In this document: positions 24,693 through 26,435 of the stretch, one piece after another
How the letters are laid out: each line of letters begins with the position of its first letter
How positions within the stretch are numbered: position 1 is the stretch's first letter
Source of the DNA: Bauldia sp.
GTDB lineage: Bacteria; Pseudomonadota; Alphaproteobacteria; Rhizobiales; Kaistiaceae
Direction: 5' to 3'
DNA length: 64,000 bases
Assembly (NCBI GenBank): GCA_037200845.1
Contig: JBBCGQ010000001.1
Location: forward strand, 2,616,237-2,680,236
Position numbers and translations under genes: made by a program
The notes under the pieces: generated by a model
Seen by the model: only the letters and a program-made list of their open reading frames with translations
The model's database searches: none
What the model was told of the DNA's origin: nothing

Positions 24693-24914
24693 ATGTCGAT
24701 GCGCCAGAACGGCACCGTGAAATTCTTCAATGCGTCGAAGGGTTACGGCTTCATCACCCCCGACGACGGCAGCAAGGACGTCTTCGTCCACGTCACCGCG
24801 GTAGAGCGCTCCGGCCTCGGCGCGCTCGCCGACGGCCAGCGGGTCTCCTTCGAAACCGAACCCGACAAACGCGGCAAGGGACCGAAGGCAATCGACCTTC
24901 AACCGGCGAGTTGA
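24693..24914 (+). CDS. Cold-shock domain protein (CspA family)
   Basis: 73 residues, a single OB-fold cold-shock domain with RNP1 KGYGFITP and RNP2 VFVHVTAV. It acts as an RNA chaperone and antiterminator. The 5' leader of at least 90 bp upstream contains a GC-rich inverted repeat (GGCGGGCTTCAGCCC), as cold-shock mRNAs often have structured leaders. A rho-independent terminator follows at 24943-24967. Two closely spaced ATGs (24693 and 24699) both fit, and the first follows GGAAGG. Confidence 0.93.
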   Translation: MSMRQNGTVKFFNASKGYGFITPDDGSKDVFVHVTAVERSGLGALADGQRVSFETEPDKRGKGPKAIDLQPAS

Positions 24915-24967: not shown

Positions 24968-24983
24968 GTGCGTCCCCTCCAAC

Positions 24984-25019
24984 GTCATCCTTCGGCGCGG
25001 CGAGGCGCGACCGGTGGCG
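24984..25019. repeat. Family E repeat, partial copy 1
   Basis: GTCATCCTTCGGCGCGGCGA followed by GGCGCGACCGG: a diverged version of the 41-bp element that frames the GIY-YIG gene, lying about 40 bp outside the left terminal copy and in the same orientation. Confidence 0.6.
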
Positions 25020-25056
25020 AGATAGCGCTATTGAGCGAGCGCCGCCTTCCCTCCAC

Positions 25057-25097
25057 TGTCATCCTTCGGCGGCGCGGAGCGCCGACCGGAGGACCAC
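25057..25097 (+). repeat. Family E terminal inverted repeat, left
   Basis: Runs from CTGTCATCCTTCGGCGGCGC to CCGACCGGAGGACCA, containing the hairpin core GGCGC-GGA-GCGCC. Confidence 0.85.
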
Positions 25098-25104
25098 GAT
25101 CAAT

Positions 25105-25389
25105 TTACGCCAGCGTTGAGTACAGGTCGTCCCACTCCACATTGGCCCTCTCGATCAGCGCGACTTTCCATTCTCGCTTCCAGTGCTTCAGACGCTTCTC
25201 GCGATGGATCGCCTCATTGATATCGGCGAACTCCTCGAAGTGGACGAGCAGCTTGAGGCCATGAGTCTTTGTGAAGCCCGGCACCAATCCTTCGCGGTGT
25301 TCCCAAGCGCGGCGCACGATATCGTTCGTCACACCAACGTAGAGCGTGCCGTGCCGACGGTTGGCCATGATGTAAACGTAATACGCCAT
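25105..25389 (-). CDS. GIY-YIG nuclease family protein (UPF0213/YhbQ-like)
   Basis: 94 residues, a free-standing GIY-YIG domain. Motif 1 is YYVYIM near residue 4 and the partner motif LYVGVT near residue 16. The catalytic Arg lies in NDIVRRAWEHR and the metal-binding Glu in INEAIHREKRLKHW. Relatives cut DNA at branched or specific sites. The gene fills almost exactly the space between two inverted family E repeats, about 50 bp from a third copy. It could cut at these repeats, in the way TnpA(REP)/RAYT transposases act on their REP hairpins, but that is inference. Confidence 0.88.
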   Translation of the reverse strand: MAYYVYIMANRRHGTLYVGVTNDIVRRAWEHREGLVPGFTKTHGLKLLVHFEEFADINEAIHREKRLKHWKREWKVALIERANVEWDDLYSTLA

Positions 25390-25402
25390 CGCTTGGTCTC
25401 AC

Positions 25403-25443
25403 TGGTCCTCCGGTCGGCGCTTCGCGCCGCCGAAGGATGACAG
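25403..25443 (-). repeat. Family E terminal inverted repeat, right
   Basis: Reverse complement of the left copy with one mismatch in the hairpin loop region (GCGCGAAGCGC instead of GCGCGGAGCGC). Confidence 0.85.
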
Positions 25444-25535
25444 TCGAGAGGAGGCGGCGCTGGCGGAATGAGAAGAGGCGAAGGCGATCGAGCCGACCGC
25501 ACCTGTCGCCTCCCGCAAGGTCGGCAAGATAGGCC

Positions 25536-26435
25536 CTACCCGTTCGCGGCCATCGCGTGCTGCTTCGGGGTCACCGCGGCCGAATAGTCTTCCATCAGCG
25601 TCTTGCTGATCTGGCCCGGCGTGAAGCGGTACTGGGCGACCTCGGAGACCGGCGTCACTTCCGCGGCGGTGCCGGTGAGGAAGCATTCGCTGAAGCCGGC
25701 CATTTCCTCCGGCATGATCGCGCGCTCGACGACCTTCAGGCCGCGCGCCCGCGCGAGGTCGATGACCGTGCGGCGCGTGATGCCGTCGAGGAAGCAGTCC
25801 GGCGTCGGCGTGTGGAGGACGCCGTCCTTGACGAAGAAGACGTTGGCGCCGGTGGCTTCCGCGATCTGGCCGCGCCAGTCGAGCATCAGCGCGTCGGCGT
25901 AGCCTTTGCGCTCCGCCTCGTGCTTGGAGATCGTGCAGATCATGTAGAGGCCGGACGCCTTCGATTTCGACGGCTCGGTCACCGGATCCGGACGGCGGTA
26001 TTTCGCCATGTCGAGGCGGATGCCCTTCAGCCGCTCCTCCGGCTTGAAGTAGGACGGCCAGTCCCACACCGCGATCGCGCAATGGATCGTGTTGTTCTGC
26101 GCCGAGACGCCCATCATCTCGCTGCCGCGCCAGGCGATCGGGCGCACGTACGCGTCGATCATGTTCTGGCGGACGAGCAGTTCGGCCGTCGCCTTGTTGA
26201 TCGTATCGACCGAATACGGAATGTCGAAGCCGAGCAGCCGCGCCGATTCGTGCAGGCGCTTGGTGTGCTCGTCGAGCTTGAAGACGACGCCGCCATAGGC
26301 GCGCTCGCCCTCGAAGACCGAGCTGGCATAGTGCAGCCCGTGGGTCAGCACGTGAATCTTGGCGTCGGCCCAGGGCACGAAAACCCCGTCCATCCAGATG
26401 ACACCGGGCCGATTATCGAAGGGCTGCGCAGCCAT
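25536..26435 (-). CDS. ilvE: Branched-chain-amino-acid aminotransferase
   Basis: 299 residues, fold-type IV PLP enzyme: VIWMDGVFVPWADAKIHVL at the start, PLP-Lys region SKASGLYMICTISKHEA near residue 155, cofactor-phosphate loops QIAEATGANVFFV and GITRRTVIDLARARG. It catalyses the last step of Leu, Ile and Val synthesis and the first of their breakdown. Length and motifs are normal. Divergent from petP across 219 bases, which probably hold both promoters. Confidence 0.93.
   Translation of the reverse strand: MAAQPFDNRPGVIWMDGVFVPWADAKIHVLTHGLHYASSVFEGERAYGGVVFKLDEHTKRLHESARLLGFDIPYSVDTINKATAELLVRQNMIDAYVRPIAWRGSEMMGVSAQNNTIHCAIAVWDWPSYFKPEERLKGIRLDMAKYRRPDPVTEPSKSKASGLYMICTISKHEAERKGYADALMLDWRGQIAEATGANVFFVKDGVLHTPTPDCFLDGITRRTVIDLARARGLKVVERAIMPEEMAGFSECFLTGTAAEVTPVSEVAQYRFTPGQISKTLMEDYSAAVTPKQHAMAANG

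Follow-up and report, generated by a model that had tools for sequence, protein, structure and literature searches.

Whether a minimal nuclease gene enclosed by inverted hairpin repeats recognises these repeats, and whether it contributes to their spread, is the question raised by one locus of the window, as the whole stretch of 64,000 nucleotides under analysis is called here. The gene (25105..25389, reverse strand), identified as an open reading frame with a match to Pfam PF01541, lies between a cold-shock gene (csp; 24693..24914, forward strand; PF00313) on its left and a gene for a class IV aminotransferase (termed ilvE; 25536..26435, reverse strand; PF01063) on its right, and these two neighbours, assigned by synteny as well, mark the site that is empty in relatives. 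Its 94-aa product contains little besides the GIY-YIG catalytic domain, with PF01541 as the sole Pfam match, covering residues 3-75 (E=4.6e-13). Alignment reveals invariant G, Y, R, E and N positions across the nuclease family, the conserved glutamate being E64, and the positions that we take to be those of GIY-YIG catalysis vary little or not at all among 70 aligned sequences. The AlphaFold2 model of the protein has a pLDDT of 96.5, and a PDB search with this model retrieved a UPF0213 protein (E=5e-4), followed by weaker matches (E of 0.025 and up) to a second UPF0213 protein, Slx1, I-TevI and the UvrC nuclease domain. By sequence, the nearest solved structures are also of UPF0213 type, namely 1zg2 (E=6.6e-6) and 1ywl (E=0.0014), entries that are named hypothetical, and we know of no linkage of UPF0213-type proteins to repeats. 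An NCBIfam search for a curated name gave a group I intron endonuclease as its sole match, far under the cut-off. GIY-YIG homing endonucleases such as I-TevI share with the window protein the catalytic fold, albeit as a weak match, and the occurrence of occupied and empty alleles. However, 94 aa leave no room for a separate DNA-binding domain, and the window gene is flanked by repeats, with no visible intron.

The repeats consist of the left REP arm A (25056..25096, forward strand) and its inverted copy A' (25403..25443, reverse strand), both defined by sequence and hairpin fold, with the GTCAT tag pointing outward and the CCA tail on the gene side. Re-reading of the sequence confirmed the initial annotation in that 41-bp inverted arms, identical at 40 of 41 positions with the single difference in the hairpin loop, enclose just a 94-residue GIY-YIG gene; of the gaps of 7 and 13 bp given there between gene and arms, the second holds and the first measures 8 bp. 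The inverted similarity reaches 67 nt at 90% (25030-25096 / 25403-25469) by means of outer extensions on the left (25030..25055, forward strand) and on the right (25444..25469, reverse strand), which are recognised by sequence match and genomic consensus. In the left extension, the pyrimidine-rich part adjoining the tag is also kept in genomic doublets (cctcCCCtCcaCT), and the consensus of 28 copies contains a pyrimidine tract of about 12 nt in the outward direction. As had been predicted, a hairpin can form at each of the two ends that flank the gene, the intact arms folding as single-stranded DNA with -15.1 kcal/mol each (z -3.8 and -4.3). The diverged third REP previously noticed outside the left arm is real as well (24983..25022, forward strand, oriented like the left arm; 79% identity over 39 nt at 24970-25008) and has no stable hairpin, its fold being no better than those of shuffled sequences (z 0.3). 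Chance origin of the arms was rejected, with 3 matches to TGTCATCCTTCGGCG in the window at up to 2 mismatches as compared to 0.19 expected. An ordinary insertion sequence was dropped because no target duplication was seen, there being no direct match longer than 6 bp within ~66 bp outside each arm, where relatives are too diverged to give exact junctions.

Genome-wide, the single 3.15-Mb contig of the host genome contains 62 exact matches to the GTCATCCTTCGGCG core, as compared to none for the reversed control. These exact cores bear out the suggestion that the ends are copies of palindromes abundant in the same genome, and repeats of the exact window type are abundant just in this host, since each of the 27 other genomes of the family contains 0-3. 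Allowing up to 3 mismatches gives 74 matches against 15 for the control, the weakest of them being partly due to chance. The 62 exact matches resolve into 24 pairs with outward tags (48 matches) and 14 unpaired matches, some of which have a mismatched partner in the search with up to 3 mismatches. All pairs but one (23 of 24) span 100-125 bp, forming doublets of ~117 bp, and the 24th is the gene unit with 384 bp, an inverted REP doublet in which the gene takes the place of the short spacer. Within 2 mismatches over 38 nt, the left and right gene-unit arms are matched by 23 and 24 of 28 genomic arms, respectively, and, as read by eye, many genomic doublets combine an A arm with a different arm, whereas the gene unit combines A with A. 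Open reading frames of at least 150 aa are lacking in 15 of 28 genomic doublets, a count made uninformative by spurious long frames in G+C-rich DNA. That the hairpins do nothing more than terminate transcription of a small gene or stabilise its RNA would agree with their closeness to both gene ends and with their stable folds, calculated with DNA parameters, but is hardly credible given copies on both sides in a set orientation, 59 exact cores away from the locus (62 less the 3 at the locus) and the co-variation with the protein described below; this terminator-alone reading was dropped on account of the genome-wide copies and the co-variation. Instead, the window quite probably holds a cognate pair, composed of a minimal GIY-YIG nuclease and the REP hairpin that it would recognise, in the form of an inverted doublet with the gene as spacer.

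The repeats resemble a described class. According to the main text of Di Nocera et al. 2013 (PMC3733652), CGTC REPs carry an unpaired CGTC (or TGTC, CCTC) tag and a CCA tail, have a stem of 8-9 bp and a loop of 4-5 nt, predominate as dimers, are found mainly in alpha-proteobacteria with dRS3 as the CGTC REP of Neisseria, and 'seem lacking a dedicated transposase', RAYTs being proposed there as mobilisers of the other (GTAG) class. The window arm is like these REPs in its tag and tail (TGTCAT...GGACCA) and in the predominance of doublets (24 pairs, 14 unpaired), but unlike them in its stem of 14 pairs with a bulge and its 3-nt loop. The string 'GIY' has no occurrence in the main text of PMC3733652, and a literature search at the level of listings found no published link between GIY-YIG proteins and REPs.

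All 3 nucleases of this clade in the host genome have REPs on both sides, and the three paralogues carry different REPs. The REP beside the second nuclease at C1:331453 (G000:C1:331289-331870; L003, L037-L039) has a core, GTCATCCTCCGCGAAGGCGGAGGATC, that is present in 3 exact copies, and with 9 pairs and a 4-nt loop it falls within the stem and loop definition of CGTC REPs. All 3 copies are at the locus of this nuclease, with no match elsewhere in the host genome at up to 3 mismatches, and this small number is counted against the reading as a cognate pair. The third, more distant nuclease (G000:C1:904185-904457; L001, L087) has another CGTC-type REP on both sides, and a window-type doublet is located ~1.7 kb from this gene at C1:904185. 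A generic REP pattern has 24 matches in the host genome. Around its 3 other GIY-YIG genes (L002, L005, L006), no REP was found within ~3.2 kb, although the finder used is blind to long-stem repeats like those of the window.

Linkage of nuclease and REP is general across the family of homologues. Among the 28 genomes of the host's family, 23 together contain 44 matches to the window protein, 3 of these 44 copies having internal stops. In the other 5, none was found at E<=1e-8, yet four of these five contain 14, 46, 9 and 23 generic REPs; both observations are counted against the cognate-pair reading. Using a strict finder, which misses the long-stem arms of the window itself, a CGTC-type hairpin was found within 300 bp on some side of 35 of the 44 copies and on both sides of 26, each gene tending to have a different stem. 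A further set of 80 named loci, being the best matches to the window protein and no random sample, comes from many Alphaproteobacteria and also from Massilia, Flavobacteriaceae, Omnitrophota, Uhrbacteria and others; flanks are long enough in 77 and too short in 3. In 250-bp flanks, inverted repeats with a score of at least 18 are present at 44 of 77 homologues, as compared to 4 of 558 control ORFs and 3 of 96 spaced controls with gaps of at least 100 bp on both sides, and the 33 homologues without a strong inverted repeat are counted against the cognate-pair reading. The inverted orientation is not exclusive, in that direct repeats with a score of at least 18 frequently span the gene too (38 of 77 versus 6 of 558 controls), owing to the presence of several REPs per side in many cases. 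The linked repeats are mostly CGTC-type REPs. REP-like hairpins occur on both sides of 49 of 77 homologues versus 6 of 96 spaced controls, and on any side of 69 versus 20, and their density falls from 4.1 per kb in the 300 bp next to the gene to 0.18 per kb at more than 2 kb, the value for distant intergenic DNA being 0.69 per kb. A REP is present on both sides in 77 of 124 rows, the innermost tags pointing outward in 44, inward in 17 and in mixed directions in 16.

Between genomes, protein distance and REP stem mismatch are correlated (Mantel 0.188, reached in 0 of 500 permutations), also after removal of pairs with homologous flanks (Mantel 0.181, 0 of 500), although some flank sharing may be hidden by short contigs. 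Such pairs were excluded because several of the wins in the host-controlled comparisons given below represented the same locus in sister species. Among pairs with no shared flank, stems are identical in 7 of 7 at a protein distance below 0.2, in 67% of 36 at 0.2-0.3, in 26% of 143 at 0.30-0.35 and in 4% of 2320 at 0.45-0.5. This test covered 116 of 123 genes and employed a looser finder, which gives a match within 250 bp for 119 of 123 genes, such that some stems are due to chance; the stem of the window gene was set by hand, and L090 was left out as the same locus as G010:C277. In host-controlled comparisons, 23 of 30 favour the nearest homologue elsewhere, with 5 ties and 2 losses, both involving the tandem duplicate of G020. 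By these sequence comparisons, nuclease similarity predicts the REP stem even between genes with unrelated flanks, which suggests that every nuclease of the clade corresponds to a hairpin of its own and that the two move together.

REP abundance follows the nuclease within families, as seen in 297 genomes of the order, each at least 95% complete. Nucleases were called at E<=1e-10 among up to 17 first-look candidates per genome, so that some may be missed, and the generic REP pattern used has almost no background and does not catch the window-type REP. The nuclease is present in at least 193 of the 297 genomes, namely in at least 80 of the 92 that have 20 or more generic REPs as compared to at least 113 of the 205 that have fewer; it is present in at least 3 of the 21 with zero REPs as compared to at least 48 of the 52 with more than 40. 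When labels were shuffled within families, the difference for the nuclease was reached in 0 of 5000 cases. The commonness of the nuclease in REP-poor genomes as well (at least 113 of 205) is counted against the cognate-pair reading. The initial annotation had named repeats spread widely in genomes without the gene as an argument against a self-moving unit, and by the generic pattern this is true of 12 of the 92 REP-rich genomes, in which no nuclease was detected among up to 17 candidates, but not of the remaining 80, which have it. Two of these 12 have a Y1_Tnp match. Another explanation is that a RAYT moves the REPs and that the nuclease locus is just one of their insertion sites. The proposal cited above for GTAG-class REPs lends itself to this explanation. 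RAYT/REPtron systems are similar to the window unit in that the gene is flanked by REPs, gene-less doublets occur elsewhere and the REP sequence is enzyme-specific. They are unlike the window unit in that its enzyme is GIY-YIG and not Y1_Tnp (HUH), and the host genome has 0 matches to Y1_Tnp at the sensitivity of the Pfam model, on which ground a RAYT was dropped as the mover in this genome, although an earlier RAYT may have been lost. Moreover, Y1_Tnp is found in 48 of the 297 genomes and its association with REP number within families is not clear (454 of 5000 shuffles), making this explanation most improbable.

Comparison of occupied and empty sites bears on the history of the unit. The order DLH-csp-ilvE-marR is found with no unit in L171, L173 and L181, and the order csp-ilvE-marR in L177, L178 and L183, so that the csp-ilvE site is empty in six relatives; that the same gene with the same flanks might stand at this locus in all relatives, which had been considered as a refutation of mobility, is thus false. 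No clade nuclease was found beside the aminotransferase gene (~1.5 kb per side) in 26 other family genomes, and one insertion in the lineage of the window would be the simplest history. As read by eye, the aminotransferase gene seems to have a GIY-YIG-like frame as its downstream neighbour in L182, L187 and L190-L196 of genus g8; at E<=1e-3 this frame is not matched by the window protein. A second genus, represented by 14 genomes, carries the unit between genes that we take to be fabI and hrpB in G023, G021 and G017 (L197, L199, L202) and, with orthologous flanks, in inverted orientation in G013 (L198); it is absent in nine genomes, and for G026 a search of the vicinity did not reveal the second of the two genes. 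Between merR-like and SMP-30-like genes, G026 carries a related nuclease that has 84% identity to the G023 copy and the same REP stem. A merR match is present in 12 other genomes, and in 11 of them these two genes are adjacent with no nuclease, separated by gaps of 37 to 601 bp, some of which contain other sequence (578 and 601 bp in L231 and L233, from G017 and G023); in G014 the second gene is not in the vicinity, and merR has no match in G021. With two occupied sites in one genus and nuclease-free alleles at both, the unit therefore occurs at different sites; alternatively, two old copies followed by differential loss may account for the pattern, the exact junctions being too diverged to show duplications. 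A passenger gene that hitchhikes between REPs and is inverted or deleted by REP recombination would explain the inversion in G013 relative to G023, G021 and G017, as well as the REP-like sequence that, by eye, occupies the fabI-hrpB site of G019 with no nuclease gene. However, hitchhiking predicts neither that the REP follows the nuclease across loci with no shared flanks nor that the other GIY-YIG genes of the host genome are REP-free, and it is considered improbable.

Returning to the cognate pair, the protein would bind the REP hairpin when the latter becomes single-stranded during replication, repair or DNA uptake, and would cut beside the bound hairpin. The gene-less doublets of ~117 bp would be non-autonomous relatives of the unit, and cutting would drive the copying of REPs and gene to new places in a homing-like manner, with host repair joining the ends. 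Recognition and cleavage of the hairpin by the nuclease are likely, and recognition as a single strand is proposed in view of the conservation of hairpin, tag and tail and of the biochemistry reported for the Ssn enzymes. These are reportedly site-specific single-stranded GIY-YIG nucleases of Neisseria with a repeated cognate site, NTS, said to have been described by Chenal et al. in Nature Communications in 2025, with many homologues and a characterisation through cleavage and transformation. A homologue from gonococcus, which over 92% of the window protein shares 50% identity with it and was found at one place in the chromosome record, lies among 8 dRS3-like CGTC REPs and is presumably the published Ssn. 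Because of this homologue and its surrounding REPs, it is very probable that Ssn and the window pair belong together. Like Ssn as reported, the window pair combines a small GIY-YIG protein with a repeated, putatively cognate site, in this case a co-varying REP with 62 exact cores. The kind of system is probably not wholly new, and the remark of the initial annotation that no description of such a unit was known to it is therefore doubtful. Compared to Ssn as reported, the present observations would add doublets similar to REPINs, sites that are empty in relatives, REP types particular to each paralogue and a host with no Y1_Tnp match, the possible reading as a mobile unit being the interesting part.

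The copying of REPs and gene is the one step that separates the cognate pair as described from the explanation that the nuclease cuts its own REPs without spreading them, having been domesticated for recombination, transformation or repair, as is reportedly the case for neisserial Ssn, while the REPs spread otherwise. The single place of the gonococcal homologue among its REPs favours domestication, as does an enzyme reduced to the nuclease domain alone, whereas genome-specific bursts of REPs, a REP type that follows the nuclease and units at different sites speak against it; its chance is substantial, though short of even. That cutting promotes the copying of REPs and gene is given somewhat less than an even chance. 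To our knowledge, GIY-YIG enzymes are hydrolytic nucleases without strand transfer, and mobility would therefore need host functions. The overall idea of the initial annotation stands as far as the ends are an abundant palindrome, the site is empty in relatives and nuclease and repeat co-vary, with mobilisation of REPs by the nuclease being plausible. By its position, co-variation and abundance, in a host with no Y1_Tnp match, the nuclease is a candidate enzyme for CGTC REPs, and the pairing of nuclease and REP may explain the spread of a large class of bacterial repeats. More tentatively, and with a chance short of even, the GIY-YIG family could be the missing dedicated enzyme of CGTC REPs, with the unit of ~0.4 kb as a minimal autonomous element that would cut its own hairpins as single strands and copy itself and the doublets via host repair. 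If REPs are indeed moved too, this would represent a very small autonomous mobile unit with transposase-free mobility, and a transposase-independent counterpart of RAYT/REPIN.

Some homologous loci contain more than one nuclease copy. A 4.2-kb palindrome-like contig of G025 (L049 / L065; G025:C20) carries two identical inverted nuclease copies and may be an assembly artefact, and in G020 (L048 / L067; G020:C5:87166-89044) close nuclease copies with the same REP stem are arranged in tandem with a period of ~1.6 kb. On pSymB of S. meliloti (L228), a REP-flanked nuclease is located between gltA and lpxB, and just upstream there is what seems, on visual reading, to be the 3' end of another nuclease gene.
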